The notes beneath the pieces were generated by a model that did not search any database, was not told the DNA's origin, and worked only from the letters and a program-made list of their open reading frames with translations. The translations under genes and the position numbers were made by a program. DNA of 64,000 nt from Nocardioides sp. L-11A (GTDB lineage: Bacteria > Actinomycetota > Actinomycetes > Propionibacteriales > Nocardioidaceae), in the NCBI GenBank assembly GCA_029961745.1, contig CP124680.1, positions 3,162,001-3,226,000 of the forward strand, read 5' to 3'. Below are positions 8,067 through 45,238 of this stretch, piece by piece (within the stretch, counting starts at the first letter, position 1; every line of letters starts with the position of its first letter).

Positions 8067-8067
8067 C

Positions 8068-9291: not shown

Positions 9292-9298
9292 CGTTCCC

Positions 9299-13387: not shown

Positions 13388-13396
13388 GTCCTCACC

Positions 13397-16962: not shown

Positions 16963-18546
16963 ATGCTGCTCCGCGACCTCGTCGACGTCTCCCGCCAGGT
17001 CGCCGCGACGCGCTCGCGCAAGGAGAAGACCCGCCTGATCAGCGCCCTGCTGCTCGCCGCCGACCCCGGTGAGCGCGCGCTCGTGGCCCACTACCTCGGC
17101 GGACGACTCCGCCAGCGCCGTACCGGGCTCGGGTGGCGGGGCCTCCAGGCCCTACCCTCCCCCGCCTCCGCGTCCACCCTGGAGGTCGGCGAGGTCGACG
17201 CCGCCTTCGCGGCGATGTCGCTGCTCGCCGGGCCGGGCTCGGTCGGCCAGCGCGGCGTCGCGGTCGCCGACCTGTTCGGGCGCGCGACCGCGAGCGAGCA
17301 GGAGTGGCTGCGCGCCGTCGCCGTCGGCGAGGTCCGCCAGGGCGCGCTCGAGGCGATCGTGACCGAGGCGCTGGCCGCGGCCGCCGAGGTCCCGCTGGCC
17401 GCGGTCCGGCGCGCCGCGATGCTCGCGGGCGGCTCGACCTATGTCGTCGACGCGGCCTTCTCGGGCCCCGACGCCCTCGCCGAGGTCGGCCTGACCGTCG
17501 GCCGGCCGGTCCTGCCGATGCTGGCCTCCTCCGCGCCGGATGTCGCCGCTGCGATCGCCAAGGCCGCCGGCGGCGCCGGACCGGTGGGCGTCGACGCCAA
17601 GCTGGACGGCATCCGGATCCAGGTGCACCGCAGCGGCGACGACGTCGTGATCGCCACCCGCAGCCTCGACGACGTCACCCACCGGCTGCCCGAGATCGTC
17701 GCCATCGCCCGCTCGCTGCCGGCCACCCGGCTCGTGCTCGACGGCGAGGCCCTGTCCCTGGCCGACGACGGCCGCCCGCGCCCCTTCCAGGAGACGGCGG
17801 CGCGCGCCGCCTCCGAGGTCGCGGTAGGCGGCACTGACAGCACCGGCATGACGCCGTACTTCTTCGACGTGCTGCACCTCGATGGCACCGACCTCATCGA
17901 CCGGCCCGCCCATGAGCGCTGGCGCATCCTGGAGGACCTGGTCCCCGCCGAGCACCGGGTGCAGCGCTGGATCGGCACCGACGTCGCCGACGCCACCGCC
18001 TTCACCGACGCGGTCCTCGCGTCGGGCCACGAGGGCGTCGTCGTGAAGTCCACCGACGCCGGGTACGACGCCGGTCGCCGCGGCTCGGCCTGGGTCAAGG
18101 TCAAGCCGGTGCATACCCTCGACCTGGTCGTCCTCGCCGTGGAGCACGGCTCCGGCCGGCGCCGCGGCTGGCTCTCCAACATCCACCTCGGCGCCCGCGA
18201 CCCGTCCTCGCCCACCGGGTTCGTGATGCTCGGCAAGACCTTGGACAAAACTGGATCACACACTAGCCCGCCAGGGTGGGTTCCGGTCGGCAAGACGTTC
18301 AAAGGCATGTCGGACGAGATGCTTGCGTGGCAGACCGAGCGATTCCTCGAACTGGAGACCCACCGAGACGGACACATCGTCTACGTCAGGCCCGAGCAAG
18401 TCGTAGAGATCGCGTTCGATGGCGTCCAACGCTCCACTCGGTACGCCGGCGGCGTAGCGCTGAGGTTCGCACGCGTCGTTCGCTACCGCGAGGACAAGCC
18501 TGCTGAGGAAGCCGACACGATCGATACGCTGCGGTCCTACATCTAG
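16963..18546 (+). CDS. ATP-dependent DNA ligase, chimeric: C-terminus supplied by an integrated element
   Basis: Joins DNA nicks using ATP. 527 residues: an N-terminal helical ligase domain, the adenylation domain with nucleotidyl-accepting K213 in KLDGIR, and an OB-fold C-terminus, as in mycobacterial LigB. Residues 1-426 are chromosomal. At residue 427 the gene crosses an attachment site (18234-18242), and the rest comes from the element, with less GC-rich codons. The junction adds 19 residues (LDKTGSHTSPPGWVPVGKT) before the sequence resumes at FKGM. The displaced native 3' end is at 30290-30545 and matches the new one at about three quarters of positions (hand count). The protein therefore has a full domain set but carries an insertion whose effect is unknown. 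Confidence 0.93.
   Translation: MLLRDLVDVSRQVAATRSRKEKTRLISALLLAADPGERALVAHYLGGRLRQRRTGLGWRGLQALPSPASASTLEVGEVDAAFAAMSLLAGPGSVGQRGVAVADLFGRATASEQEWLRAVAVGEVRQGALEAIVTEALAAAAEVPLAAVRRAAMLAGGSTYVVDAAFSGPDALAEVGLTVGRPVLPMLASSAPDVAAAIAKAAGGAGPVGVDAKLDGIRIQVHRSGDDVVIATRSLDDVTHRLPEIVAIARSLPATRLVLDGEALSLADDGRPRPFQETAARAASEVAVGGTDSTGMTPYFFDVLHLDGTDLIDRPAHERWRILEDLVPAEHRVQRWIGTDVADATAFTDAVLASGHEGVVVKSTDAGYDAGRRGSAWVKVKPVHTLDLVVLAVEHGSGRRRGWLSNIHLGARDPSSPTGFVMLGKTLDKTGSHTSPPGWVPVGKTFKGMSDEMLAWQTERFLELETHRDGHIVYVRPEQVVEIAFDGVQRSTRYAGGVALRFARVVRYREDKPAEEADTIDTLRSYI
18234..18242. other. attL core of the element
   Basis: CAAGACCTT, in the ligase reading frame (AAG ACC TT). Left of it is chromosomal ligase; right of it is element sequence. 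The inferred uninterrupted site reads GGCAAGACCTTCAAGGGG. Confidence 0.8.
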
Positions 18547-19044
18547 TCACGAACTGCTACTGATGGCACTCCTCCAGCTGGCGGGGGCAGTCACCATGAC
18601 GGCGGGGCCGGACCCCCACTGGCGGGGCGGACCGCCCCTCACTTCGGCACGCCGAAGGCGGGCCCTTTCGTAGTCGATCACGAACGTCACGCGAGCTCGG
18701 CGCCCTTGGTCGCCCGGATCCAGACCGGCAACCCCATCGCCGACACCTTCGATCGCCTCGGTGCGACGAGCCGGCGTGCGTCGTAGCCCGGTCCACCCAC
18801 GTGGCGGTGGCGACCGAACGTGGTTTCCCGCGGGCCGACGTTGCTCCACGCGCAGGCCGCCGACGTCCGCGAGGCCGGCCGCCGCGAGATGATCGAGCAG
18901 GCGTCCCGTAAGGAGCGCGCGATGATGGGGCCAGTCGTTGTCTTCCTCGTCCTCCCGACGACGGCGCTCTTCGCCTATAGCCCGACGAAGGTGGAGAGAG
19001 AAGGAGTTTGCGATTGGCCCTACGATGTCCCGCGAGGAGGGCGG
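18547..19044. other. Left end of the element without a convincing gene
   Basis: About 500 bp with open frames on both strands but none with good start, ribosome site and sequence character. A short GC-rich hairpin (GGGGCGG-ACC-GCCCC, about 18617-18633) could end ligase transcription. The frame at 18820 that continues into the next gene encodes a hydrophobic stretch but lacks a good start. Confidence 0.4.
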
Positions 19045-19788
19045 ATGGCATCGGACATTGAGCGTCAGCAGGCGGCTGCGCGTGCGCTTTCCGATCCTGC
19101 GGTGCAGGCCCAACTCATCGCGGCTACCCGCCGGCTCGCGGACCAGGAGTACATGGCAGCCGTCAGACGATCCATGCAGGACGTCGCCAACCTGATGGCC
19201 GACCGCGAGTTCTGGGCGTCGTATCGCCGCTCCGTCGTCAGCATGATGTCCACGCTGTCGAGCGCGGAGTTCTGGGAGTCGTACCGCCGCTCGGTCGTCG
19301 CCACGATGTCGCTGTTCTCGGACCCCAAGTTCTGGGAGTCGTTCCGCGAGCAGATGATGACGGCGACGAGGGTCGTATCGAGCCCTGACTTCGCTGCTGC
19401 TCTCCAGAGACAGGTTGCTGCCCTGTCCGCCACGAACCAGATGTACGCGGACGCGGTGAGGCAGTCGCTCGAAGGGATCTCTCAGCAGATGGCTGACCCA
19501 ACGGTCAGCGCGGCCATCCGTCAGCGGCTCGCAGCTGCGTGGGAGGAGCAGCAGGCCAGCACGTCAGGTCACGATGGGCCGTTGCCGCTGATGCTCTTCG
19601 CTAACCTCGTCTTCACGTGCGTCCTCCTCTGGTGCCTGGGCTACTTCTTGGGGGAGGCCAACAGGACCGGCGAAGATCTGTTGGAGGCCAACCGCTTCGA
19701 GGTCGCTTCCAGTGTGGGGTTCGCCCTCACGATTGCCTTCGGGGCTCGCAACGCGGTGTTGCGGGGCGGGAAGTACCTCGGAATGTGA
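19045..19788 (+). CDS. Repeat-containing membrane protein, unknown function
   Basis: 247 residues from the ATG at 19045, chosen for the GAGGAGGGCGG upstream. Residues about 35-160 are a series of roughly 20-residue imperfect repeats, best seen as FWASYRRSVVSMMSTLSSAE, FWESYRRSVVATMSLFSDPK and FWESFREQMMTATRVVSSPD, with weaker copies on both sides. A C-terminal hydrophobic segment (LMLFANLVFTCVLLWCLGYF) and a second weaker one imply membrane anchoring with the repeats as a helical rod. Family not recognised. It lies in the element's accessory zone, so a role in phage or plasmid conflict is possible but unsupported. Confidence 0.65.
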   Translation: MASDIERQQAAARALSDPAVQAQLIAATRRLADQEYMAAVRRSMQDVANLMADREFWASYRRSVVSMMSTLSSAEFWESYRRSVVATMSLFSDPKFWESFREQMMTATRVVSSPDFAAALQRQVAALSATNQMYADAVRQSLEGISQQMADPTVSAAIRQRLAAAWEEQQASTSGHDGPLPLMLFANLVFTCVLLWCLGYFLGEANRTGEDLLEANRFEVASSVGFALTIAFGARNAVLRGGKYLGM

Positions 19789-19873
19789 CCTTCTGTGCGG
19801 CTCTGAACGGCCTGTCCGCTGAGCCCTCTACGCTCGCTTGGGTTCGGAACTTGAAGCGACAGGGGACCGTTGG

Positions 19874-20638
19874 ATGGACAACATTGAGGATCTGCTGCAT
19901 CGGCGCACCGATCTGAGCACCTTCTTGGTCCACCTGACACGTGACACGAAGAAGTACGAGGCGCGACAAAACCTCCTTAGCCTGTTGGAAGACCGAACCA
20001 TTCAGGCGCGAACGCCGCTCGGGATGGCTGCGGATCTCGATGACTACCTCAAAGACACGATCGCGACCCAACGTGTCGTCTGCTTCTCGGAAACGCCGCT
20101 GGAGCACTCCTGGATGATGGTCCGGGACATCAAGGGTCGACAGCAGAAGTTCAAGCCGTACGGCATCGTGTTCAGCAAGTCCTTCGCTCGCCGGTGCGGC
20201 TGCAATCCGGTCTGGTACCTCGACATCACGATTGGACATGACTGGCTCACCGTTCCCGTGAACGAGCTGATCTCCCAGGCGAAGGCCGCGAGCCAGGGCC
20301 GTCGCGGACGGCTTAAGGCGGAGCTCCTCGCGAATGAGAGCGTCTTCCGGCTAACGCCGTTCATCGAGCAGATGGGCAACCCCTCAGGCACCCGTAAGGA
20401 GTTCTGGTGGGAACGGGAGTGGCGACATGCCGGTCACTTCGCATTCCGGCCCCGCAAGGTGGTTGCGGTGCTGGCACCCGAGTCGGACCACGAGGACCTA
20501 GCCGATGAGATCGCTGACATAGACCTCGATTGGGCGAAGCGGCGAGTGCCGCTACTCGATCCGTCGTGGGGACTGGAGCGCATGATCTCCGCGCTCGCAC
20601 GCATCGACCCCGACGACGCCGGCCCCTGGCCGGAGTAG
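19874..20638 (+). CDS. AbiGi-like abortive-infection family protein
   Basis: 254 residues. The pattern FLVHLTRD, NLLSLLEDRTI, VVCFSETPLEHSWMM, YGIVFSKSFAR, NPVWYLD, then EFWWEREWRH matches what I recall of AbiGi-type proteins, a component of abortive phage-resistance systems described as an antitoxin. ATG 19874 is chosen because AGGGGA lies 8 nt upstream. Seven bases before a PIN-domain gene, suggesting a two-gene module. The conserved aromatic and charged residues suggest an enzyme rather than a simple binding protein. The assignment rests on memory of the family pattern. Confidence 0.55.
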   Translation: MDNIEDLLHRRTDLSTFLVHLTRDTKKYEARQNLLSLLEDRTIQARTPLGMAADLDDYLKDTIATQRVVCFSETPLEHSWMMVRDIKGRQQKFKPYGIVFSKSFARRCGCNPVWYLDITIGHDWLTVPVNELISQAKAASQGRRGRLKAELLANESVFRLTPFIEQMGNPSGTRKEFWWEREWRHAGHFAFRPRKVVAVLAPESDHEDLADEIADIDLDWAKRRVPLLDPSWGLERMISALARIDPDDAGPWPE

Positions 20639-20645
20639 GTCCGCG

Positions 20646-21311
20646 ATGCTCGCCGGACCGTTGTTCGAGTACGACCGCATCCGTGACCTCGTGCCCACAC
20701 GGCAAGGCATGGGGCCTGTCTGGGTCGCTTGGGACACGAACGTTCTTTCTCTCTACGAACGCTACGTCGCAGCCATGTGTGAGGGGGACGAGCTCACTGT
20801 CCTAGGGACGGACCCAAATGAGGTCGAGGCGCTGTCCACGCTCATTTTCGTCTGGCTCTGGTGGGATCTGCGCTTCATCATCGTCGACGCAACCGCAACG
20901 GACACCAAGAATCCAAGGCCGGCTGCCCTAGTGGAGCAACGCGACCGTGCGATGGAGGGGCTGCGACGCGCGCTGTCGCTCGGTCTCGACGGGGATGGAG
21001 AGGACCCGGAGCCACGCATCCCGTACCTGCCTCCACGAGTCATCGCCAGCCTCCCGAAGGGACACGACCGCGTGATGGTTCCGGACGCCTTCGCGGTCGG
21101 TGCAGACGTGTTCCTCACCATCGACAAAGGGATCCTCAAACGAGCTGCCGTACTGCGCGATCAAGGCTTGGTGGTCCTGCCGCCCACCGGCCTCGTTGAT
21201 GCGCTCGTAGAGGCAGGGCTGGACGTTGAGAGCGGCCCCCGTCAGATGGGCAACGGGCTGGCCCCTGACCTCGGACATATGTCTGCGCTGCTCGAAACCC
21301 TTGGGGTCTGA
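20646..21311 (+). CDS. PIN-like domain protein, putative RNase
   Basis: 221 residues. An early acidic motif (VAWDTNVLSLYERY), a middle region, and a late VPDAFAVGADVFLTIDKGIL segment are arranged as in PIN-domain ribonucleases, where separated Asp/Glu residues bind Mg2+. ATG 20646 follows the AbiGi-like stop by 7 bp with a GGAG-type ribosome site overlapping that gene's end. Likely the nuclease partner of the preceding gene; a toxin or defence effector is inferred, not shown. Confidence 0.6.
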   Translation: MLAGPLFEYDRIRDLVPTRQGMGPVWVAWDTNVLSLYERYVAAMCEGDELTVLGTDPNEVEALSTLIFVWLWWDLRFIIVDATATDTKNPRPAALVEQRDRAMEGLRRALSLGLDGDGEDPEPRIPYLPPRVIASLPKGHDRVMVPDAFAVGADVFLTIDKGILKRAAVLRDQGLVVLPPTGLVDALVEAGLDVESGPRQMGNGLAPDLGHMSALLETLGV

Positions 21312-21312
21312 G

Positions 21313-21534
21313 TCACTCGTCGGTCGGGGAATGCAACTGGCCGGGCTCGAAGACCCAGTCACCCTCGACGCCATCCATCTCGACGGTGAATCGGTAGATC
21401 GGCGCTCCTCGGTCTCGTCCCCACGATCGGTCCACGATGGTTCCGATGCGCCACTGTCCCGGTTCCTCGTAGCGGTTCCACACCCGGACGCGCATCCCCG
21501 TATGCCACTGTTCGCCTCGCCGTTCCTCCGTCAT
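21313..21534 (-). CDS. Small hypothetical protein
   Basis: 73 residues with many aromatic and charged residues (RVRVWNRYEEPGQWRIGTIV, later GDWVFEPGQLHSP), looking like a small SH3-like or Tudor-like beta barrel. Convergent with the PIN gene, one base apart. No family recognised. An internal ATG (MRVRVWN) is an alternative start. Confidence 0.5.
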   Translation of the reverse strand: MTEERRGEQWHTGMRVRVWNRYEEPGQWRIGTIVDRSWGRDRGAPIYRFTVEMDGVEGDWVFEPGQLHSPTDE

Positions 21535-21744
21535 CTGGCGAGCCTAGGGCGCGGCGACCACTGAGGGGAGCCTTGGACGTGCTGCCTCAGGCGAGTCGCC
21601 GTGACTCACCTGCTCGCGCCCCCTGGGGGCAGGACCCCTCGCGCTGAACCTCCCGACCGCTACGTCATAGCACGAAAGATCCTGTGACGCTCAAAGGTCT
21701 GGAGGCAGGCAGCCGCAGGTGTGACCACTCCGAGGGCATTTGGG

Positions 21745-22857
21745 TCAGGTGTTCCGCGGCGGGAGTCCCAAGTGCTCGCGTATCTCCTGGTCCCGAAGGC
21801 CACCGGCGATCATGAGCGCCTTGATGACTTCCTCGAAAACGGCCTTGTCGGAACCGATCTCCCATCCAAGGTACGCCTGCAAGCGTTTCAGCATCTCGTC
21901 AACCGCCAGGAGCGGCGCGATCAAGTGCCACGCGATGCCCTCGGTTCGTTGCCACGAGTCGACTTCGATCCAGATCGCATGCTCACCAGCGATGTGAATC
22001 GGAGGACGGTAGGAGTGTGCGACAGCAGACAGCGAGCGATACGTCGTCCGCCCGATGCCCGGAAGGAGCAGTTCAGCCATCGACATGGCGGAGGCTGGCC
22101 TGGTTTCGCCGTCCCCGTGGATGACTGGCGGCGTCCACCTCTTCCGGTTGTGCGGGGTAACGCTAAAGCCGAGCTGAATCGCAAACTCCCGCAACTCATC
22201 CAGTTCGGTAAGTAGTCTCTCCGAGATCTCAGCGTCCCCCGTGAAGTTCGCGCCCTCCTTCACATCGTTGAAGTGGACGTTCATCGCCCGCCGCAGACGT
22301 TCCTGCGGTCCGACATCGAGATCCGTAAGGAAGCACGCCACAGAGGCGGCTTCAAGAACCGTTCGAGTGAGGGTTAGCGGTGCTCTCAATGCGCCGCCTT
22401 CGATTGCCAGCAGGTCTCCAACGGCAGCCAAGTGATCCAACGCAGTGTTGGAGCACCGGGTTAGATGTTCGATCGCTCTGACCGTGGGATTGCGGATCGG
22501 GTTTGTGTCCAACCAGTGCGTGGATTGAAGGTCAGGCGACGCGCTGAAGGCGACCGTTGGAGCATCCCACCGGGAGACGTCTTGTTCAGCGATCGAGCCG
22601 GTCGCAGGCTTCCACGCGTACGTCTGTGTCGGCGACATACCAGCCGCCAAGCAGTAGTGCACCCTCGCGAGGTTAAGGATCCTTTGGCTGCTGCGAGCAA
22701 TCTCTGCAAGCAGCGGCCCGAGCACGTCGCCAGTGGGCCGCAACTGCACGACCTGACGGTGCTCTTCCCCAGCGCGCTCAAGGTCGTCCAACCACGCTTG
22801 CGCATCGAACTCTTGGCTGCTGTCACTCTCCGTCACGGGACCAGCATGACGCCACAC
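21745..22857 (-). CDS. Hypothetical helical protein of the element
   Basis: Up to 370 residues; mostly alpha-helical by composition, with conserved-looking stretches (ARVHYCLAAGMSP, TVLEAASVACFLTDLD, AVAHSYRPP). No transmembrane segment or recognisable catalytic motif. Start uncertain: GTG 22857 or GTG 22836. Placed just after the terminase small subunit on the same strand, at the boundary with the accessory zone. Confidence 0.6.
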   Translation of the reverse strand: MWRHAGPVTESDSSQEFDAQAWLDDLERAGEEHRQVVQLRPTGDVLGPLLAEIARSSQRILNLARVHYCLAAGMSPTQTYAWKPATGSIAEQDVSRWDAPTVAFSASPDLQSTHWLDTNPIRNPTVRAIEHLTRCSNTALDHLAAVGDLLAIEGGALRAPLTLTRTVLEAASVACFLTDLDVGPQERLRRAMNVHFNDVKEGANFTGDAEISERLLTELDELREFAIQLGFSVTPHNRKRWTPPVIHGDGETRPASAMSMAELLLPGIGRTTYRSLSAVAHSYRPPIHIAGEHAIWIEVDSWQRTEGIAWHLIAPLLAVDEMLKRLQAYLGWEIGSDKAVFEEVIKALMIAGGLRDQEIREHLGLPPRNT

Positions 22858-22958
22858 CCCTGATGCCGAGCCGCATTTGCGCCGCGGCGTCTAATGGAAC
22901 GACAGATGGCCCCTCCTGGCGCTCCCGGAATCGAGAGGCAGGAGGGGGCATTGTTCGC

Positions 22959-23366
22959 TCAACCGGTGCCGAACAGGTCGTCCAGTCCGGCGAGGAAGTC
23001 CTCCTCGTCGTCGGGAGCTTTCTGCAACTCGATGTGGAGCTTGCGTCGATCGCCCTCGGTGGCGAGCAGAGCACCGAGCGCCTGCATGATGACACGCAGG
23101 TACTCGGGAGATCGTCGGCCTCCCTGCTGATACAGATGCTCGATCTGGTCGCATACGATGTAGAGCACGGCGTAATCGCTGGACTCGAAGTAGGCCGCGC
23201 CTCCGGACTCCAACATCGAGTCCCACACCATCCGAGCGGCCTTGGACCATTCGGGATCGGGCACCGGAACAGTCGCGGGGTTGCTCTTGCCCCGGACTGT
23301 CGTCGTGCCACGCTGCTTGCGCTTTCGCTCACCGGCCGGGGTGAGGTCTTCAGTGCGATTCGGCAT
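22959..23366 (-). CDS. Phage terminase small subunit (TerS)
   Basis: DNA-recognition subunit for phage packaging, 135 residues. The pattern PDPEWSKAARMVWDSMLESG, YFESSDYAVLYIVCDQ, ALGALLATEGDRRKLHIEL matches actinophage small terminases. ATG 23366 starts MPNRTEDL with GGAG upstream, and the gene overlaps the preceding frame by 17 bp. No large terminase is present. A lone terS is the hallmark of satellites that redirect helper packaging. Confidence 0.75.
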   Translation of the reverse strand: MPNRTEDLTPAGERKRKQRGTTTVRGKSNPATVPVPDPEWSKAARMVWDSMLESGGAAYFESSDYAVLYIVCDQIEHLYQQGGRRSPEYLRVIMQALGALLATEGDRRKLHIELQKAPDDEEDFLAGLDDLFGTG

Positions 23367-23640
23367 CGTTGCCAAGCTTGGTCTCCTTCTTGTTGAGGTA
23401 ATCGGAGCCGATGGCTCCGAAGGGTTCGTGCTCCGATGGATGGCAGAACAACGCGGCGTAGGCGTCGTACAAGGGCACGCCGACGAGGCGATCGAGCAGC
23501 GCCGCCTTCTGACGCACCCTTGCTCCGGCGTCATCGTTCTCCTCGATGGAGCGGACGAGGGCCACTAGCGCTTCGGCTCTGTCGACCTCGATCCCTGCTG
23601 ACAGGAATGCACCAAGGCGGTAGATGTCGGTGGTCGTCAT
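23350..23640 (-). CDS. Small hypothetical phage-type protein
   Basis: About 96 residues (TTTDIYRLGAFLSAGIEV), acidic and helical. ATG 23640 has GAGG 5 nt upstream; an ATG at 23646 is equally possible. Overlaps terS by 17 bp, so it is translated with it. Function unknown. Confidence 0.6.
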   Translation of the reverse strand: MTTTDIYRLGAFLSAGIEVDRAEALVALVRSIEENDDAGARVRQKAALLDRLVGVPLYDAYAALFCHPSEHEPFGAIGSDYLNKKETKLGNDAESH

Positions 23641-23648
23641 CGTCATCC

Positions 23649-23804
23649 TCAGGTCGTCCTCGCCTCGATCCGCATGATCTGCACCGCCGTTCGCCGCTTG
23701 ATGCTGCCGGCCGTGACCTTCTGCCCCGGCTTGAACGCCGATTCGCAGTCGAGTTGCTTGCCCTGCCGAACGAACTTCCTGCCCAGCGCCTTACCGCCCT
23801 TCAC
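23649..23804 (-). CDS. Very small basic protein, coupled to the zinc-ribbon gene upstream
   Basis: 51 residues, Lys/Arg-rich (KGGKALGRKFVRQGKQLD, ending MRIEARTT). Its GTG start overlaps the stop of the 23801-24085 gene (GTGA), which supports translation. Looks like a small beta-rich nucleic-acid-binding protein; no family recognised. Confidence 0.5.
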   Translation of the reverse strand: MKGGKALGRKFVRQGKQLDCESAFKPGQKVTAGSIKRRTAVQIMRIEARTT

Positions 23805-24085
23805 GCGGCCCACGCTCCGATCTGAGGCGGACCAGAGACCGAAGGGGTGTTCCCAGCCCACCTGGCCGCGTCGTCCCCCGCGTTGCGCCACGAGGGCCCC
23901 GTGCCGGTGCAGTCCGCACAGACCGGAGCGACCTCTGAGAAGCCGAGTTGGTGGCCGTAGGCAGCCTGCACGCTGCAGGGCTCGCAGAAGCCGTCGCTGA
24001 GGTACGTGTTCTTCACCCGGTGCCATGTCCGAGCCTGCTCCAAGGTCTCTGCGCGACGGGATGACGCCGTTGGCTGCCGAGCCAT
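23801..24085 (-). CDS. Small zinc-ribbon-like protein
   Basis: 94 residues with two CxxC pairs (CEPC and CADC) about 20 residues apart, enough for one zinc ribbon. The ATG overlaps the stop of the 296-residue protein (TGATG). Probably DNA- or protein-binding; role unknown. Confidence 0.65.
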   Translation of the reverse strand: MARQPTASSRRAETLEQARTWHRVKNTYLSDGFCEPCSVQAAYGHQLGFSEVAPVCADCTGTGPSWRNAGDDAARWAGNTPSVSGPPQIGAWAA

Positions 24086-24975
24086 CAGTTGACACTTCGA
24101 CGGGAGCGAGCAGTGGCGGTGAACTCGATCTCGGCGCCGCTAGCGCCACCGGGACCGCTCGACCACGGGCGCACGTTCGAGATCTCGATCTTCTCGATGA
24201 CACCGAGGTTCGGCGCGAGGCCGGATCGCCGCTCGACGAAGGGTCGGATCTCGTTGACGATCTCGTTAAGTGTCCAGCGGATGCCGTTGTCGCTGTAGGC
24301 GGCGATCGTGCCCCGAACAGTGGCAGCCTGCTCATCGCTGGCGACCACGGTCGTGTCGAGCACACGAGCAGCCCGTCCCACCGTGTCACTGCGACCACGC
24401 TTGGCGAACGCGACGATCTCGTGGGCAAGGCCGTCAGCACTCGGCCTCGGAACAACGGGGTTGTCGAGGAGAGCGTGCTTCATCGTGACGATGTTGATCG
24501 ACTCGCCTTGGCTGAAGTTCCCAACATCGACAAACGACAGGTTGCCGTTCAGCGAGTGCTTCGCCATCAGGTCGCGCAGCATCTTGGTGTCGAGAACGGG
24601 ACTGCCAAGGTTGTGCAGCTTCACGCTCACCTTGCCGGACGCGGTGCCAGTGCCCGTGTGCTCGGTCGGAGCGAGCGGCTTCACGACGATGGTCGGCACA
24701 CCATCCTCGATCTCGATGTCTCCGACGGCGTACTTCGTGTCCAGCGGCAGCCGGAGGTCGTACGCGCTGTCGCGGAGCACCTGGGCGACGAACTCGGCGA
24801 GTTCCGCATCTGCGTTGGCAGCAGCGTCGCGCCTTGCCGTTGCTTCCATGGTCTGCCGTCGTAGGACGAGCTCGTTGAAGCGATCTGCGAAGTACGCGGA
24901 AGCCAGGTCGGCAGCAGTGATGCCCTTGGCGCCGGCGAGGATCTGGTTTTCGAGGTTCTTGTAGGTGTTGGTCAT
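24085..24975 (-). CDS. Hypothetical protein of the element
   Basis: 296 residues from an ATG giving MTNTYKNLENQIL, with a clear ribosome site (AAGGAG) upstream. An N-terminal helical region is followed by a mixed segment with KVSVKLHNLGSPVLDTKML. No recognised motif. Central gene of the satellite, between the replication and packaging genes, and so perhaps involved in DNA processing or helper interference (inference only). Confidence 0.65.
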   Translation of the reverse strand: MTNTYKNLENQILAGAKGITAADLASAYFADRFNELVLRRQTMEATARRDAAANADAELAEFVAQVLRDSAYDLRLPLDTKYAVGDIEIEDGVPTIVVKPLAPTEHTGTGTASGKVSVKLHNLGSPVLDTKMLRDLMAKHSLNGNLSFVDVGNFSQGESINIVTMKHALLDNPVVPRPSADGLAHEIVAFAKRGRSDTVGRAARVLDTTVVASDEQAATVRGTIAAYSDNGIRWTLNEIVNEIRPFVERRSGLAPNLGVIEKIEISNVRPWSSGPGGASGAEIEFTATARSRRSVN

Positions 24976-24989
24976 GCTGTCGATCTCCT

Positions 24990-25217
24990 TCAGTTGACGG
25001 GGTCGGTCTGGCCGGCGCGCTTTCGGTTTCGGCGGCTCCGCTGGAGCTTCCGGTCGGCAGCGGCTTCTCGGCTGGCGTCGAAACTCGGGTGGATCGCCAT
25101 GACCGTGATCGGCTCGATGGCGACTCGAGCCTCTTGGCCGGGGAGTAGCGGGAGCAGGTGCTCCCAGCGCTCATGGGGCCGGGCCAGCAGGCCGGGGTCG
25201 TTGATCGTGTTCCTGAT
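24990..25217 (-). CDS. Small protein gene lacking a canonical start codon
   Basis: 75 codons from ATC 25217, with AAGGAG seven bases upstream, the ideal place for a start. The sequence (RNTINDPGLLARPHERWEHL, then LPGQEARVAIEPITV) looks coding and ends in a basic tail. No ATG, GTG or TTG lies upstream in frame near the ribosome site. The first internal ATG would give only 35 residues. Either ATC is used, or a start codon was lost. Confidence 0.45.
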   Translation of the reverse strand: MRNTINDPGLLARPHERWEHLLPLLPGQEARVAIEPITVMAIHPSFDASREAAADRKLQRSRRNRKRAGQTDPVN

Positions 25218-25392
25218 GGGTTTTCTCCTTCTCTGCGTAGCCCGGTTTCGGGCATGACTAGATCGCCGGATGGACGGGTGTCGTCCACCGGAGGTGAAGA
25301 TGGATTGCAGCGCTCACGGCGCAGCGCGGAGTACCGAAGGTGCCTCGCGGATCGCTCCTCGCGCCTCAGCCGGAGGGGCGACGGAGGGATGG

Positions 25393-25413
25393 AAGGTTCC
25401 GAGTTGGAACCTT
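25393..25413. terminator. Hairpin downstream of the replication-initiator candidate
   Basis: AAGGTTCC-GAGTT-GGAACCTT is a perfect 8-bp stem with a 5-nt loop, 35 bp after the end of the gene at 25448. No T-tract follows, so it may attenuate or protect mRNA rather than terminate. Confidence 0.35.
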
Positions 25414-25447
25414 GGGTTGATCGAGGATCTATCTCAGACGAGACAGT

Positions 25448-26227
25448 TCATCGGCGACGGCGAGGAACGTATCCGCTGGGAGTGATCTCGTCAGGGTCGA
25501 TCCCGAGAGCCCTCGGGTCTTCGTTCTGCTCCAGGTTGTTCTCGAACCACTGACGACGCTGCTCGTCGGAGTGCTTCGACTCGCTCCGCTCTCGACTGGC
25601 GACGGCGAAGCAATGAGGACAGCCGTCCTTTGGATAGACATTGCCGTGATCGACACAGAGAGCGATCTCGGGCACCGTCGTCTCCTCCGTTGCCTCGACC
25701 TTGTTGACAGCGGCTACCCGAGGAGAGATCCCCGAAGGGGTCTCGGTGTTCTGAGCCTCCTTGTCACCGTCGTCCCAGAAGGAGGGAGCCTTGCCGATGT
25801 CAGGGTGAGCCGTGTTGGTAGGAGACACATAGGAGTCTTCAGATTCCTCCTTTGGAGTACATGCTTCGCCGACCATGTACTCCTTTGGAGTACATGCTTC
25901 GTGGGGGGTCTCGCCGACCACGTACTCCTTTGGAGTACATGCCCCCTCGCTCGGCGCCTCGGAAACGAGGGTCGCGAGGAGATCGAGATCGGCGACATAG
26001 GCCGTGGCCGCGTCGAATCGCCGTTGCTCGACCATCAGCCCCGACTCCAGCGCAGCACTGCGCCAGGCGTAGTAGCCCTTCCTCGATTTGATGCCGAGAT
26101 CGGCCATGTTCGTCTCGACGCTGCCGTACAGCACTCCACCTCGACTCGCGATGAGATTGAGGAAGCCCTTGACTCGGTAGTCCAACCCGCGGGCGTCGCG
26201 GGTCATGTGCGCAAGTCGCTCGTCCAT
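25448..26227 (-). CDS. Candidate replication initiator with internal palindromic repeats
   Basis: 259 residues. The N-terminal half (DYRVKGFLNLIASRGGVLYG, then SRKGYYAWRSAALESGLMVE) looks like a winged-helix DNA-binding domain of the kind found in phage O/Rep-type proteins. The middle contains three ACTPKE repeats encoded by palindromic DNA (25846-25941). The C-terminal part has a CxxH...CxxC zinc-finger-like motif (CVDHGNVYPKDGCPHCF) and a basic end. ATG 26227 overlaps the upstream stop (TGATG). Lambda O also carries origin iterons inside its gene, so the repeats may be the origin. A regulator role is the alternative. Confidence 0.55.
   Translation of the reverse strand: MDERLAHMTRDARGLDYRVKGFLNLIASRGGVLYGSVETNMADLGIKSRKGYYAWRSAALESGLMVEQRRFDAATAYVADLDLLATLVSEAPSEGACTPKEYVVGETPHEACTPKEYMVGEACTPKEESEDSYVSPTNTAHPDIGKAPSFWDDGDKEAQNTETPSGISPRVAAVNKVEATEETTVPEIALCVDHGNVYPKDGCPHCFAVASRERSESKHSDEQRRQWFENNLEQNEDPRALGIDPDEITPSGYVPRRRR
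25846..25941. repeat. Three palindromic repeats inside the initiator candidate, possible origin
   Basis: Three copies share CTCCTTTGGAGTACATG. The full palindrome GTACTCCTTTGGAGTAC occurs at 25877-25893 and 25922-25938, with a half-diverged copy centred on 25852. Centres are 33 and 45 bp apart. Each unit is self-complementary around TTT. Because they lie in a coding region and encode a repeated ACTPKE peptide, they could equally be a protein-level repeat. Confidence 0.6.
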
Positions 26228-26469
26228 CAGCGACCAGCTCTCAGCGCGGTCGAGAGGTCGATCCACTCGTCTACAACGGCGTCCGGTGTCTTGCGGAGCC
26301 TGCCGCCGATCAGGACGGCAGCGTCCAGCCGCTCCAGAGCATCGAGCCACGGCACAGCCGGGTCGCCCGCGACATTGGCAGCGTGCTCCAACGCGACCTG
26401 GTACATGATCGCCGCGACATCGGGCGCTCCAGCCGGACGTCCGCTCGGCTTCTTCCGCCTACGGCTCAT
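26227..26469 (-). CDS. Small hypothetical protein
   Basis: 80 residues; a basic N-terminus (MSRRRKKPSGRPAG) followed by a helical part (IMYQVALEHAANVAGDPAV). Coupled by short overlaps to the genes on both sides (ATGA upstream, TGATG downstream). Function unknown. Confidence 0.6.
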   Translation of the reverse strand: MSRRRKKPSGRPAGAPDVAAIMYQVALEHAANVAGDPAVPWLDALERLDAAVLIGGRLRKTPDAVVDEWIDLSTALRAGR

Positions 26470-26768
26470 GCAGCCTCCTCAGTCGATCGCCCCTCTGGCC
26501 GCCACGGATTCCCCGGCACGTAGACCGGCAGGCCGTCACACTCGGCCTGTCGAGCAAGCCTCACGAGCTCGTAGCCACGAAGTGCTCTCTCTTGGCCGGT
26601 GCGTCCGTTGACCGCGACGTAGATCCAGCGGCCAGCGTCGGACTTCTTGCGGTCCAACACCCGCCAGTGGCCGATACTCGCGCCGACGAGACCGTGCGCG
26701 ATGGCCTCATGAGCATCCACAGCCCTGTGTTGCATGTTGCCCAGGTCGGGCTGCTCCTGCCGGCTCAT
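26466..26768 (-). CDS. Small DNA-binding-like protein (AP2/HNH-associated type)
   Basis: 100 residues with GHWRVLDRKKSDAGRWIYV and GRTGQERALRGYELVRLA, resembling the beta-rich AP2-like domains common in phage HNH proteins, but without an HNH core. Overlaps the excisionase-like gene by 4 bp. Role unknown. Confidence 0.5.
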   Translation of the reverse strand: MSRQEQPDLGNMQHRAVDAHEAIAHGLVGASIGHWRVLDRKKSDAGRWIYVAVNGRTGQERALRGYELVRLARQAECDGLPVYVPGNPWRPEGRSTEEAA

Positions 26769-26968
26769 CGGCTACCCCGCAGGCGCGCACGAGCCCGGAC
26801 CTCGGACAGCTTGAAGAACACGCGACCGGGGATGATCTCGCGGTGCCGCTGGAGATAATCGTCGCCATGCAGGCTCAGATAGTTCCGTAGCGTCTGCGGT
26901 CCCATTCCCATCTCCTCGCTTGCTTCTCTCCAGTCGAGGTAGGTATCGGCTCCAATCTGTAGGGCCAT
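26765..26968 (-). CDS. Excisionase-like (MerR/AlpA-type HTH) protein
   Basis: 67 residues from ATG 26968 (AAAGGAG ribosome site upstream). The sequence TYLDWREASEEMGMGPQTLR, then FFKLSEVRARAR, has the winged-helix pattern of excisionases and AlpA-type regulators. In satellites such a protein controls excision or the replication operon. It opens the short-overlap run of genes that includes the initiator candidate. Confidence 0.6.
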   Translation of the reverse strand: MALQIGADTYLDWREASEEMGMGPQTLRNYLSLHGDDYLQRHREIIPGRVFFKLSEVRARARLRGSR

Positions 26969-27032
26969 CTCGGTGGCTCCTTTCAATGATTTGTTATGAA
27001 CGGGTCATCCCACGTTGGGGCAAGAAGAAGTG

Positions 27033-27073
27033 CCCTCGCGGTCGGGACAGTGAGGAAGAGCCGACCGCGAGGG
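27033..27073. terminator. 13-bp hairpin between the zinc-ribbon and excisionase-like genes
   Basis: CCCTCGCGGTCGG (27033-27045) pairs perfectly with CCGACCGCGAGGG (27061-27073) around a 15-nt loop. On the minus strand a pyrimidine-rich CTTCTTCTTG follows. Best read as a terminator or attenuator between the two minus-strand genes. A second inverted repeat, TCTGCATAG (27193-27201) and CTATGCAGA (27227-27235), lies nearby and may be an operator. The gene-free stretch is 26969-27261. Confidence 0.45.
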
Positions 27074-27261
27074 AATACATGCGCGCAGGCCAAGGAAGGA
27101 GGGGATCCCAGACTGCGCGATGCTCAGATCGGGAGGGATCCAAGGAAACTCAGGGAAGTGGACCCAAGTCCCCCGGCTCAACCTCATACCGATCTGCATA
27201 GCGAGGACGATCACCTCATCCTCTATCTATGCAGACGGTCCTCCTACGGCTTGAAACAGCA

Positions 27262-27708
27262 TTAAGCGGACCACGAGGCAATGGCGCGATCCCGATACCG
27301 CTTCCGCCGTCGCTCATTGCGACGGAGCCGAACGCCCACAGCCCGCTTGGCCTTCTCGACAGCCTCACGCTCGGCAATCGCTTCTCTGGCCTTGCTCACG
27401 CGCTCCTGATGAGCAGCCAGGTCCGTCTCCGTCTCGAAGGGCCTCATGGGCTCGGGTCTCCCGATGACGCTGTAGGGCACGCCGTATCCGACGTGGCCGC
27501 AACTGACGGTGCGTCCAGCGGTGAGGTTGTCTGCGCGAATGACCTTCTCTGCGCCGCAGTCGCAGAGACAGAGGTATTGCGCCTTCGACCCCGGAGCGTT
27601 CTCGACCCGCTCAACAACGGTCAGGTGTCGGAATACCTGACCGGCGAGATCCTGGCGCCAGAGGTTCCTCGACGTCAGTGGAGTCTTGCTACTGGCTGAA
27701 TCGGGCAT
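27262..27708 (-). CDS. Zinc-ribbon DNA-binding protein of phage type
   Basis: 148 residues from ATG 27708, with AAGGAGG upstream. The core (LAGQVFRHLTVVERVENA, CLCDCGAEKVIRADNL, TVSCGHVGYG) is the beta-hairpin/zinc-ribbon module found in many actinophage proteins next to HNH domains. The tail is highly basic (RLRRNERRRKRYRDRAI). Likely nucleic-acid binding; regulation or replication is possible. Confidence 0.6.
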   Translation of the reverse strand: MPDSASSKTPLTSRNLWRQDLAGQVFRHLTVVERVENAPGSKAQYLCLCDCGAEKVIRADNLTAGRTVSCGHVGYGVPYSVIGRPEPMRPFETETDLAAHQERVSKAREAIAEREAVEKAKRAVGVRLRRNERRRKRYRDRAIASWSA

Positions 27709-28118
27709 GGGAGATTCCTCCTTCATCTCGGGAATATTGCGCGAGACGAAGTGGCCGTCCCCACCTGCTTCCGTTCGGTCGAGGCTCGTTGCCGGAGCCG
27801 TTGTCGCTCTGGTGGGCACCATTATGGATTATGCGAGGTACAGAACCGGCAGATCAGTCCGACACCTGCCGGCCAGAACATCAGTCTGGACCATCTCAGA
27901 CAGGTTCTCGCCGACGCTCTCCCGAGAACGCGAGGACGGCGCTCTGTGCGCCTCCGCAGCGCGGACTCGACTGCCTCTTGCACTCCGAGTGCCGCCCTGG
28001 CCGTGGTCCGCATTCACGCGCTCTACGGCGCTGCCTCATCACTACCTACACATAGATGGGCATTCGAATCTCCCTGTTTCCCCGCCGAAGTGGCTGAAGG
28101 TGCAGTAGAAATCCGGTC
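27709..28118. promoter_or_regulatory. Divergent intergenic region of the element
   Basis: 410 bp without a convincing gene, between the minus-strand zinc-ribbon gene and the plus-strand DUF2510 gene, so it should hold at least two promoters. A stem CCGGCAG (27846-27852) with CTGCCGG (27866-27872) is the clearest structure. This is where a satellite master-regulator region would be expected. Confidence 0.4.
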
Positions 28119-28421
28119 ATGGGCCTGTTCAGGAAGACGATGAGCCTCAGCACGATGGGCGTGGTCAACTGGCGCAACGACAGTGAGCGACAGGCAGCAG
28201 CCGAGCGCTCCAAGTCGAAGGCGTACCGCGACCGCACCCAGACCTTGCTGGAGCAGGCGCAGGCTGACCGCGACGCAGCGCTACGGATCGCCAACCAGCA
28301 GGCTCAGGCTGCCGCACCTGTCTCCGCTGGTCCCCCTCCCGGCTGGTACGACGATCCTGACGGCGATGCCGGGAAGCGCTGGTGGGATGGCTCAGCGTGG
28401 ACTGAGCACAGAAACTCGTAG
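28119..28421 (+). CDS. DUF2510-domain small protein
   Basis: 100 residues: a charged coiled-coil-like region (RQAAAERSKSKAYRDRTQTL), an Ala/Gln linker, and a C-terminal DUF2510 motif (PPPGWYDDPDGDAGKRWWDG), common in actinobacterial envelope proteins. No membrane segment is visible here. Convergent with the secreted protein at 28423. Function unknown. Confidence 0.65.
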   Translation: MGLFRKTMSLSTMGVVNWRNDSERQAAAERSKSKAYRDRTQTLLEQAQADRDAALRIANQQAQAAAPVSAGPPPGWYDDPDGDAGKRWWDGSAWTEHRNS

Positions 28422-28422
28422 G

Positions 28423-28827
28423 TCAGCAGTCGTTGTTCTTCCAACGACCCGATACCTTGACCCATGGCTCCCGCCGCTGGTTCAGATCGGGGTCGGAGAA
28501 CGTGTAGGTCACCCGGGCGCGCGTGCCTCGGACCTTGGCGCGGTAGGTCTCGATGTGGAGGTTGCCGTAGATGATCGCAGCGAGGTCGGAGGAGTCGTTG
28601 AACGGACCGCGAGGAATCACGGCGCGACAACGAGGGGTAAGCATCCGGTACGCCTTGGTTCCGTTGCCGTTGAGGTACGCCCGCGAGTAGTCCGTGACAG
28701 CCTCGCGCAGCGCCGCCTTGGATGACGGCGCGCCTGCCTGCGCGACGCTCGACATCGACGGGACCAGGGCAAGGGCAGCGACACCCGCCACTCCGACGCG
28801 GAGAACCTTCGCAATCATGCCGGCCAT
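28423..28827 (-). CDS. Secreted hypothetical protein
   Basis: 134 residues with a signal peptide (hydrophobic GVAGVAALALVPSMSS, then an AQA-type cleavage site) and a mature domain with an NTF2-like look (DYSRAYLNGNGTKAYRMLTP, later VRGTRARVTYTFSD). Start at 28827 or the ATG at 28818. Next to the integrase; such exported cargo may alter the host surface, for example by superinfection exclusion (inference). Confidence 0.6.
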   Translation of the reverse strand: MAGMIAKVLRVGVAGVAALALVPSMSSVAQAGAPSSKAALREAVTDYSRAYLNGNGTKAYRMLTPRCRAVIPRGPFNDSSDLAAIIYGNLHIETYRAKVRGTRARVTYTFSDPDLNQRREPWVKVSGRWKNNDC

Positions 28828-28872
28828 CCTGCCCGACGCTGATTGTCGTTGCGCAGAGGGGCGCCAGCCCAG

Positions 28873-30255
28873 TCAACTGATCGGCCAGATCACCTTCTCC
28901 TCGATCGCGAGCCCCTTTCCTCGCCGGACCACGGCAGGCCCGAGGCATGACAGCAGCAAGTGCGATCGCTCGGCATCGTCGGCGGCCTGCCAGGCCTCCC
29001 CGTAGGTCCGTCCCGTCGGAGCGGTCGTCGTCGTTCGCTCGACGGGCATGTCCTCAGCCTCCCGGAGGGCACGCTTGGCGTCTCTCAGGTCGCGGAGGAC
29101 GCCTTCCTCCTCGTCGTCTGACAGCTCGCCTAGGAAGGCGATCTGCGCAGCCTCTAGCCGCACCTGGGCGAGCGCGATCGCTTCCGTCCTCGCCGTGGGA
29201 TCGTCCACGACCACCTCCACGATCTCCGGCTCGTCGGACCAGTTGCCCAGGAACGCCTGCTCTAAGTGAGCGTCTGCTCGAACAGCAACGACGGTCGGAG
29301 ACGTATCCCCCGGCTCGTGCTTCACCCGGCGGCACACGTAGGTGCTGTACTCCGGCTTGCGATTGCTCTTGGCGTAGTAGAGCCGATCCCCGCAGACCTC
29401 ACAGCGCAGAGCAGCGCCATATCCCCTCGCCTTGCTCCACGCCTTCGTCTCCGGCTTGTCGAGATAGTCCCGGAGCCGTCGCCATTCCACCAAGGTCAAC
29501 AGAGCAGCGTCGGGGTCGATCTTCGGCACCCCGCCGACCATGACGACACCATCGCCATTCGGGATCATGCCCGCGAGTCGGGGGTTCCTGAGGAGCTTGT
29601 GCATCCCGGTCTTGGACAGCCCGAGCGCCTTTCGAGCGCTGTCCTGCGACTCCCCCGCCATCACTGCCGCAATGGCGTCACGCAGGAGCTTCGCCGGAGG
29701 CTCCCCGCCGTCCTCCGGATCCCGCCAGTCTGGCCGGATCACCAGCCCGCGCCCCTTCGGGTTCTCCGCCGACAGGAAGCCGTACGGCGCCCCGCCGACG
29801 ATGTGCCTGCCCTCTTCGCGAGCGGCACTGATCGACTCCCTCCGCCGCTCCGCGATGAGAGCTCGCTCGAACTCTGCGACCGCCGCGAGGATGGTCAGCA
29901 GCAGACGGCCCGTCGATCCTGTGGTGTCGATGTCATTTCCGACGAAGACGATGCTCGCCCCCGCCTTCTCGATGTGCTCGACCGTTGCCAGGAGGTCAGA
30001 CGCGCTGCGGGCGGCACGGTCGATCTTCGACACGTACACGACATCGCCCTTGCTCACGTCCTCCCACAGGCGACCGCCATCGGGACGTTCGCGCATCGGA
30101 ATCGCACCTGACCGCGACTCATCGACGTACCACTCGATCTTCTCGGGGTCGCCGCCCTTCGACATCACCGAACCAGTGATCTGGCTCTTCTGCTTCTGGA
30201 TCGACCCCGACACCTTCGTGTCGAGGCTGATCCGGGCATACCCTCTGTCAGCCAC
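28873..30255 (-). CDS. Large serine integrase
   Basis: Site-specific recombinase of 460 residues. Catalytic Ser10 in YARISLD, the resolvase core ([12 protein letters not shown], then [21 protein letters not shown]), a recombinase domain ([16 protein letters not shown]), a zinc ribbon ([14 protein letters not shown], then YVCRRV) and a C-terminal coiled coil. The GTG at 30255 is preceded by AAAGGAT. The gene starts 31 bp inside the right att core (30287-30295), the usual integrase position. It should insert the element into the ligase gene. Confidence 0.95.
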
Positions 30256-30286
30256 GCTCGGATCCTTTCATATATCGAGTTATCTC

Positions 30287-30295
30287 CAAGACCTT
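30287..30295. other. attR core of the element
   Basis: CAAGACCTT, identical to the left core. Sequence to its right continues the chromosomal ligase in frame (AAG ACC TTC AAG GGG ATG), fixing the right boundary. Confidence 0.8.
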
Positions 30296-30545
30296 CAAGG
30301 GGATGACCGACCAGATGCTGGCCTGGCAGACCGAGCGCTTCCGCGGGCTCCAGGTGGACGACGACGGCTGGGTCGTCACGGTGCGTCCCGAGCAGGTCGT
30401 CGAGATCGCCTTCGACGGCCTGCAGCGCTCCACCCGCTACCCCGGCGGCCTGGCCCTGCGCTTCGCCCGGGTGGTGCGCTACCGCGACGACAAGGCCGCG
30501 GACGAGGCGGACACGATCGAGACGGTACGCTCGCTGCTGCCCTGA
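30290..30545 (+). pseudogene. Displaced native 3' end of the DNA ligase gene
   Basis: Encodes [20 protein letters not shown] and onward to VRSLLP before a stop, in high-GC host codon usage. It corresponds to residues 446 to the end of the present ligase. An ATG at 30303 opens an 80-codon frame, but without the adenylation domain it cannot be a ligase. It was cut off by integration and should rejoin on excision. Confidence 0.92.
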
Positions 30546-31302: not shown

Positions 31303-31309
31303 CGGCGGT

Positions 31310-31354
31310 ACGCCGAACGGCCCGTCCCCCGCAGAGGGACGGGCCGTTCGGCGT
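31310..31354. terminator. Bidirectional terminator
   Basis: 19-bp perfect stem: ACGCCGAACGGCCCGTCCC (31310-31328) and its complement at 31336-31354, 7-nt loop. Lies between the convergent TetR and thiolase genes and should serve both. Confidence 0.8.
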
Positions 31355-31362
31355 AGCGGAGG

Positions 31363-43225: not shown

Positions 43226-43437
43226 TGCTCCAGCGCCCGCTCGACCCGCTCCACCTTGGCGGTGAGCTCGCCGGAGAAGCCGGGCCGGATGTCGGCCTTG
43301 AGCACCAGCCCGACGCGAGGCGAGGATGCGGCCACGACGTCGACCGCCTGCTTCACGACCGCCATCACCTCGTCCCACTCCCCCTCGATCGTCGTGAACA
43401 TCGGTATCCGAACTGAGGTAAGCGCTGCGGCTGTCAT
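43222..43437 (-). pseudogene. Stranded C-terminal half of a thiamine-binding-protein (MTH1187/YkoF) gene
   Basis: Encodes MFTTIEGEWDEVMAVVKQAV to the end (KVERVERALEQ), the second half of a family whose intact member is at 43434-43733. Its current ATG (43437) overlaps the stop of that intact copy (ATGA), and its first 12 residues (MTAAALTSVRIP) come from inserted DNA. It may still be translated as a 71-residue coupled peptide leading into the DUF3105 gene. Confidence 0.85.
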
Positions 43438-43733
43438 TGGCCGAGGAGCCTGTTCACTCGATCCACCTTGGCAGCAAGTTGCCCGGTGTACCCGGGGCGA
43501 ATGTCTGCCTTTAGAACAAGGCTCACACGGGGCGACACCATCACGACTGCCGCAGTCGCCTGCTTGACGACCTCCATGACTTCGTCCCATTCACCCTCGA
43601 TGGTCGTGAACATCGACGTGAGTTCCCACGGCAGGCCCGAGTCCCGCACGACTTCCACGGCCCTGGCGACGGCTTCCGCAACCGACCCGTCATCGTCTCC
43701 GCCAGCAGGCGCGACACTGAAGGCAACCAACAT
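43434..43733 (-). CDS. Thiamine-binding protein family (MTH1187/YkoF-like), intact imported copy
   Basis: 99 residues (MLVAFSVAPAGGDDDGSVAE, then MFTTIEGEWDEVMEVVKQAT). Members form small ferredoxin-like tetramers that bind thiamine-type ligands (PF01910). It closely resembles the split native gene. By position it replaces the function lost on insertion and keeps translational coupling downstream through an ATGA overlap at 43434-43437. Confidence 0.88.
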   Translation of the reverse strand: MLVAFSVAPAGGDDDGSVAEAVARAVEVVRDSGLPWELTSMFTTIEGEWDEVMEVVKQATAAVVMVSPRVSLVLKADIRPGYTGQLAAKVDRVNRLLGQ

Positions 43734-45203: not shown

Positions 45204-45238
45204 GCGCCCACCGTAGCCAGGGGCCTTCCGGAGAAGCA

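Follow-up and report, generated by a model that had tools for sequence, protein, structure and literature searches.

An island of low guanine-plus-cytosine (GC) content that interrupts a DNA ligase gene of Nocardioides sp. L-11A is, in our judgement, a phage satellite that depends on a helper and belongs to an actinobacterial family that is apparently undescribed, a reading to which we give a probability of roughly 0.7. The window analysed is a 64,000-nucleotide stretch of contig CP124680.1 (positions 3,162,001 to 3,226,000; G000:C1:3162001-3226000 when genomes, contigs and loci are numbered as below), taken from a genome of 5.68 Mb in one contig. Within it, the island spans 12.06 kb (18234-30295) inside the gene for an ATP-dependent DNA ligase. 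GC content per 1-kb step is 62–67% across 19001-30000 and 67–78% in the rest of the window, with one further dip (61%, 44001-45000). As a first-pass annotation of the sequence had noted, identical 9-bp cores, CAAGACCTT, stand at 18234-18242 (attL) and 30287-30295 (attR), spaced 12,053 bp apart. A 9-bp repeat by itself is weak evidence for a boundary, and we therefore used the empty-site join and uninterrupted relatives instead. Joining the flanks at the core yields a 509-residue ligase open reading frame (ORF) with no internal stop, which aligns with the uninterrupted ligase of a congener (G056) at 79.3% identity over 507 residues and a single gap. The island boundaries are thus real. No tRNA gene (ARAGORN) and no Rfam family above its gathering score was found in the window.

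The ligase target and its replacement 3′ end had been overlooked in the first-pass annotation. The present-day ligase ORF (16963-18546, plus strand; Pfam DNA_ligase_A_M, 1.9e-41, and A_C, 9e-11) is a hybrid that is native up to 18242 and then crosses the left core into the island, where a short in-frame linker and a full replacement C terminus, both borne by the element (18243-18546, plus strand), carry it to a stop at 18546 as a single open frame of 527 residues. The displaced native 3′ end (30287-30545, plus strand) starts at the right core and extends the ligase frame once the flanks are joined. Compared with each other, the element-borne end (18291-18536) and the native end (30287-30532) are 75% identical over 246 nucleotides; among their 79 codons, 26 differ synonymously only and 19 non-synonymously, and their GC contents are 62% and 71%, respectively. 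It is thus the island, with a diverged ligase 3′ end of its own, that keeps the interrupted ligase open. Element-borne ligase ends with the same layout occur in genomes G009 and G025. Two further islets, G189 and G112, follow the same repair principle at another gene: a remnant end adjoins the integrase and a complete gene lies at the far end, the remnant matching the end of the complete gene at 71% over 94 residues and 64% over 92 residues, respectively. This target gene had no Pfam match at 0.01.

Inwards from the right core, the minus-strand genes encode, in order, the integrase, a probably secreted protein, an HNH-related protein, an excisionase-like protein, the proteins N, M, L, J, I and H, TerS (terminase small subunit) and a 370-residue protein; the plus strand carries a DUF2510 gene and, at the left end, three cargo genes, one of them AbiGi-like. 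Family scans (Pfam, PHROG and others) covered 17 island ORFs. The integrase (28873-30255, minus strand), correctly recognized from the start as a large serine integrase just inside the right core, has the parts expected of that class, namely a Resolvase N-terminal domain (PF00239, 9e-31), a long C-terminal part and a zinc ribbon (PF13408, 0.001, below cut-off), and it matches phrog_95 across residues 5-448 (7.4e-55). NCBIfam matched its recombinase domain below cut-off and gave noise for one cargo protein. Relatives of this integrase occupy the same ligase site in G009 and G036. The excisionase-like gene (26765-26986, minus strand), also proposed in the first-pass annotation, encodes a small helix-turn-helix (HTH) protein. 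Its phrog_66 match (E = 0.005) is weak alone; the assignment is supported by its positional counterpart in islet G112, which matches at 1.2e-4, and the protein is 37% identical to its positional counterpart in G035. TerS (22959-23366, minus strand) belongs to Terminase_7 (7.2e-25; 88 bits against a curated cut-off of 27), in agreement with its initial naming as a terminase small subunit. The TerL (large terminase), portal, capsid and tail genes of a complete prophage, reported as absent at the outset, were likewise not found among the 17 ORFs, save that PHROG labels the TerS family ‘minor tail protein’, and the TerL, portal and capsid of prophage G383 had no tblastn match in the entire window.

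TerS islets in which no structural gene was seen comprise, besides the window, four in Nocardioidaceae (G035, G189, G112 and G269) and one in Knoellia subterranea (L086), which lends good support to the satellite reading first offered for this island. TerS matched 6 of 215 genomes of the genus, and a TerS profile matched 7 of 341 genomes of the family and 6 in a sample of 391 genomes from the order; TerS matches in G212 and G317 and N matches in G272 and G290 were left out of the islet comparison. The TerS proteins of G112 and G269 are distant, yet exceed the Terminase_7 cut-off. An ORF directly upstream of TerS is present in all six islets, the one in Knoellia being a tblastn match only (31% over 68 residues). 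In the window this ORF is H (23350-23646, minus strand), a small ORF that overlaps the TerS start. By tblastn, homology of the upstream ORF is clear between the window and G189, and a chain of matches links G035, Knoellia, G112 and G269. The Knoellia locus (9760-13838) contains TerS, the H-like match and a large cargo protein of the G189 type (the 521-residue G189 protein is matched at 66% identity over 444 residues); the family thus extends past Nocardioidaceae. No integrase was noticed at this locus when its gene list was read.

The other Nocardioidaceae, in which the first-pass annotation had recommended a search for the same gene order, agree with the island in part: the four TerS islets exist, but the core genes are only partly shared and the integrases are mostly other ones, being serine integrases in G035 and G189 (phrog_95) and, by DNA likeness to G189, in G112, and a tyrosine-type integrase in G269 (phrog_1). 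The islet-family marker J (24085-24975, minus strand) was found at E = 2.7e-6 by a profile of the J proteins of three other islets, built without the window protein, which matched 7 of 335 family genomes, some weakly. N (26466-26768, minus strand), the marker adjoining the excisionase-like gene, is 46% identical to its G035 counterpart, and its profile matched 6 of 341 family genomes, again some weakly. I (23801-24085, minus strand), a Cys-rich protein of 94 residues, has partial tblastn matches in G035, G189 and G009. Neither G133, with a weak J match, nor G138, with N and a winged-helix gene and no TerS seen, was counted as an islet. Cargo in relatives includes type III restriction genes (G112 and G150) and ArdA (G035, G269 and G003). 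DNA comparison found an integrase common to G189 and G112, and a helicase and an integrase common to G269 and G003; as far as DNA likeness can tell, this shows that modules are exchanged between islets. In metagenomes, the longest contigs of three TerS proteins and three N proteins are equal in size (75186, 34898 and 11818), which suggests that TerS and N are linked there as well.

These comparisons bear on the possibility that the island is a conjugative integrative element, either an actinomycete integrative and conjugative element (AICE) or an integrative and mobilizable element (IME), that acquired TerS incidentally. In G003 and G150, an excisionase, a replication gene and J form a core that has no TerS and is accompanied by what look by eye like tyrosine integrases, and ArdA and restriction cargo are generally frequent on conjugative elements. 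However, the scans of the 17 island ORFs gave no transfer genes, neither a relaxase nor a TraB/FtsK-like translocase of the kind that marks AICEs and IMEs, and TerS with its upstream ORF recurs in six islets that fall into two clearly separate sequence groups, which argues for use of these genes rather than chance pick-up. We therefore rejected the conjugative reading as unlikely.

We also searched for packaging genes elsewhere in the genomes. The G383 TerL query matched 20 of 215 genus genomes, with G000 (the window genome), G035, G112 and G189 not among them. Because this query misses the G036 TerL, although both fall into one PHROG, the whole family, phrog_9, was searched as well. Large terminases of phrog_9 were found in six of nine genomes and were absent from G000, G189 and G269; they are of prophage type in G003, G150, G036 and G058, whereas in G035 the match lies on C53 (islet on C11) and in G112 a weak match lies on C152 (islet on C200). 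Portals of phrog_104 were present in four of the nine (G036, G058, G003 and G150) and not in G000, G035, G112, G189 or G269. The G383 capsid matched in 3 of 10 genomes, which are the prophage carriers G058, G383 and G385. Judging from these matches, some islet relatives reside in cells whose prophages could act as helpers.

An old satellite that is now an immobile genomic island, retained for its cargo, would also fit a genome with no matching large terminase or portal. Related material has decayed at the same site: in G025 (L076, G025:C1:2661501-2667500), a remnant islet of ~1.9 kb was observed, its ligase end still complete. By contrast, the integrase, TerS and J genes of the window are intact ORFs with no internal stops, both cores are intact and the flanks join cleanly, so that we regard immobility of the island as improbable.

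To place TerS among phages, we compared the gene neighbourhoods of its relatives. In prophages G058, G383 and G385, a TerS-family gene shortly precedes the genes for TerL, portal and capsid (named by PHROG in G383), which supports reading the family as TerS. By tblastn, TerS matched 332 of 50,697 phage records, all at less than 60% identity; by name, 175 are Streptomyces phages and 153 Mycobacterium phages. Among viral loci with a TerS of this family (80 analysed, the best of 189 confirmed; pieces of ~4 to 20 kb; tblastn, E = 1e-3), G383 TerL was matched in 77, portal in 73 and capsid in 54, and the other tested island genes in none. Four pieces of the three prophages gave the same picture, with TerL and portal in 4/4, capsid in 3/4 and island genes other than TerS in 0/4. 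By contrast, G383 TerL, portal and capsid matched none of eight islet pieces (from seven islets) and not the window. J, H and N of the window, and the J of G269, had no match in the 50,697 phage records, and a pattern search found no relatives of N and J in viral contigs. A protein search with J recovered only J itself (8000 candidates scored), and the PDB held no useful relative of TerS or J. In a tree of 71 TerS sequences, a single group of 26 rows (99/87) unites 20 viral rows (taken from the 80 loci), three from prophages and three others from genomes, and contains none of the 42 islet-type rows; Knoellia falls among the islet-type rows, and G112 and G269 lie far apart.

Prophages can nevertheless occupy the ligase site. 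In G036, this gene houses a prophage of 41.7 kb, for which PHROG names a TerL, a portal, a capsid and a tape measure gene and whose integrase is 43% identical to that of the island. The G036 ligase is matched only to residue 456, so that, unlike in the islets, the native C terminus is lost. This prophage (G036:C1:2213245-2256519) has a second TerL and portal copy with the same scores, accompanied by a similar integrase, at ~2619848-2630857 of that genome. At the ligase site of G009 (L074, G009:C10:549501-569500) lies a 21-kb element with a tape measure gene (phrog_305, 1e-79; ~7088-11149), an I homologue and a possible short J-like gene; it is possibly a satellite with its own tail-length ruler. 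The G036 prophage, the G025 remnant and the tape measure gene retained in G009 could speak for the alternative that the first-pass annotation itself had named, a temperate phage in the ligase gene that has since decayed, its structural genes gone and its integrase, TerS and early genes retained. This fits badly because the 80 viral loci and 3 prophages match no island gene other than TerS. With TerS islets lacking visible structural genes at five further loci, four of which encode their own integrase, and J, H and N unmatched in the 50,697 phage records, we rejected this alternative as very unlikely.

We next consider how the island, read as a satellite, might replicate. No primase family was found among its 17 ORFs. 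The initiator candidate proposed in the first-pass annotation, L (25448-26227, minus strand), had no family over cut-off in the scans; its candidacy is based on its position and on repeats within the gene. After an N-terminal part that looks winged-helix-like by eye, L contains three copies of a 23-bp palindrome with the centre TTT, the first degenerate, which we take as a putative replication origin (25842-25942). The positional counterpart of gene L in G035 contains four copies of a different palindrome, its centre also TTT. When the genes were recoded synonymously, the triple repeat of the window was reached by 0 of 300 recodings and its longest pair by 1 of 300, and the double, triple and quadruple repeats of G035 were reached by 0 of 300. 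Candidate repeats were also seen near the G112 helicase. The lambda O protein has an N-terminal DNA-binding domain, and its gene likewise contains the iterons of the origin; the likeness between lambda O/ori and L is architectural only, with no homology seen in the family scans.

Several points weigh against the satellite reading. Such islets are rare, and one of the 7 of 341 profile matches in the family is the G058 prophage. The search for structural genes used family scans in the window; in the other islets it used queries from a single prophage together with inspection of gene lists, so that structural genes of an unrelated set could escape there. The TerS tree is unrooted, its islet-type set is not shown as a clade and most of its rows have no known context. 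The window H is tied by tblastn to G189 only; its position and a loose pattern match (18–38% identity) connect it with the rest. TerS is missing from the J-containing cores of G003 and G150, so that the core can do without it; in G189, TerS is present and no J was seen. The likeness of L to the G035 protein is weak (30% over 86 residues; two-sequence blastp E = 4e-6) and escapes default tblastn, and the winged-helix genes of G138 and G150 have no significant in-gene repeats by synonymous recoding. Finally, the window genome has no phrog_9 or phrog_104 match. Lacking a large terminase of the matching family, this genome cannot supply the helper, which must be external.

The island resembles several known satellites in part. 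The portion of PMC6092414 available to us describes Gram-positive phage-inducible chromosomal islands (PICIs) as elements of ~15 kb with an att site never occupied by prophages, a pri-rep module with an origin and, in some members, terS. At 12.06 kb and with a Terminase_7 TerS, the island agrees in size and in terS, but its ligase gene houses a prophage in G036 and, in place of a pri-rep module, it has an initiator candidate with in-gene iterons; strict PICI membership was rejected on these two features. Compared by description, it shares with TerS-type PICIs (the Staphylococcus aureus pathogenicity islands and others) a size of ~12-15 kb, an integrase, an excisionase, an own initiator, a repeat-bearing origin, terS, the lack of structural genes and accessory genes at the end, and, as far as that source describes them, it differs from them in its serine integrase, in having no primase or rep module found, in origin repeats inside the initiator gene, in an att site shared with a prophage and in carrying the 3′ end of its target gene (PMC6092414). 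The initial label ‘PICI-type’ thus holds in a functional sense only. The island most likely works like a TerS-type PICI while lacking two PICI features, and we infer its mobile life cycle throughout.

The V. cholerae PICI-like element (PLE) is a satellite without structural genes. Compared by description, it and the island both have a large serine recombinase, whereas the PLE takes its directionality factor from the helper and the island has its own small HTH candidate (according to what we could consult of PMC6002521). The serine rather than tyrosine integrase pointed out in the first-pass annotation therefore has precedents, in PLE 1 (PMC6002521) and in one Mycobacterium candidate PICI (PMC10654092), within the accessible text of both sources. 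From the same portion of PMC10654092, the Mycobacterium candidate PICIs and phiRv1/phiRv2 are actinobacterial like the island, with a serine integrase in one of four examples, but are defined by an integrase and a major capsid gene, which sets the capsid-less island apart by description. No major capsid gene was found in the island, in contrast to capsid-forming PICIs, satellites of the MiniFlayer type and the Mycobacterium candidates. The Streptomyces satellites MulchRoom and MiniFlayer (OQ784832 and OQ357865; PMC10690885, seen in part) are, like the island, actinobacterial satellites with TerS; they carry TerL, portal, scaffold and capsid, whereas no TerL, portal or capsid was found in the island. 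The island TerS profile did not match their TerS, and none of the island genes matched at E ≤ 0.01 (best E = 0.016); as a control, the G383 portal weakly matched both. The earlier remark that few actinobacterial examples are known is right for the capsid-less kind, given that, in the text available to us, the Mycobacterium and Streptomyces ones are defined by or carry a capsid gene. It has been proposed that small actinobacterial prophage remnants may be satellites (PMC10023795, as far as accessible). In the papers covered, as listings and abstracts, we found no description of capsid-less satellites of Nocardioidaceae or of J, H and N; a survey of thousands of satellites (PMC10085698) may list such elements.

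If the island is a satellite, its life cycle may run as follows. Infection by a phage whose packaging enzyme accepts a Terminase_7 TerS would be the trigger. The integrase, with a directionality factor that could be the small HTH protein at 26765 or, as in the V. cholerae PLE, a phage protein, would excise the island as a circle. L may then bind the palindromic iterons in its own gene and start replication there with host replication proteins, in the manner of lambda O. TerS, made together with H from overlapping genes, would mark the satellite DNA for the TerL and capsid of the helper, and the next cell would be infected by transduction. The AbiGi-like gene and its neighbours would be cargo that may protect the host.

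The left end had been annotated as the likely place for defence cargo, which is supported for one gene: a protein at 19874-20638 (plus strand) resembles the abortive-infection antitoxin family AbiGi (Pfam 2.7e-6, above cut-off; PADLOC 2.3e-4), whereas the other left-end cargo genes had no family match. These are a repeat-containing protein (18889-19788, plus strand; repeats spaced 60 nucleotides, hydrophobic stretches by eye, no Pfam family over cut-off) and a 221-residue protein that is PIN-like by eye only (20646-21311, plus strand; no Pfam, PHROG, PADLOC or NCBIfam match). A small ORF (21313-21534, minus strand) and the 370-residue protein distal to TerS (21745-22857, minus strand) had no family match either, and M (26227-26469, minus strand) is a small ORF that was included in the family scans. 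Towards the right core lie the HNH-family-related gene (27262-27708, minus strand; phrog_374, 3.5e-16 over 54 residues), the DUF2510 gene (28119-28421, plus strand; Pfam 6.9e-10) and the gene for the small, probably secreted protein (28423-28827, minus strand; signal-like N terminus by eye, no family over cut-off).

Outside the island, an inverted repeat with two 23-nucleotide arms, 96% complementary and terminator-like, follows the gene downstream of the island (31306-31358). A second small islet-like insertion, on the minus strand at 43244-45239, coincides with the GC dip at 44001-45000 (61%). It carries a TIR-domain protein (43849-44847; Pfam TIR_2, 2e-17) adjoined by a complete thiamine-binding-protein gene (43434-43733; Pfam, 3e-28), and the native copy of the latter seems to have been split, one part lying at 45021-45239 and a remnant, 73% identical to 43456-43615, at 43244-43403. 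No integrase was seen in this insertion on reading its gene list.

The islet family most likely extends wider than the window and is apparently undescribed. Because the actinobacterial satellites described in the sources consulted carry capsid genes, searches keyed to capsids would miss islands of this kind. A broader proposal, which we see as evenly poised, is that of a widespread, so far unrecognized actinobacterial satellite family. Its core would comprise J, N, an excisionase and a replication gene of initiator or helicase type, its serine and tyrosine integrases would be interchangeable and H-TerS would be an optional packaging cassette; its members would carry restriction, antirestriction or abortive-infection cargo and keep their residence harmless by mending the gene they enter, and some would have in-gene origins of palindromic iterons. 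Helpers are predicted to be phages with Terminase_7 small subunits, such as the Streptomyces phages matched by TerS. If the broader proposal is true, J and H would represent new proteins specific to satellites, with roles in replication and packaging.

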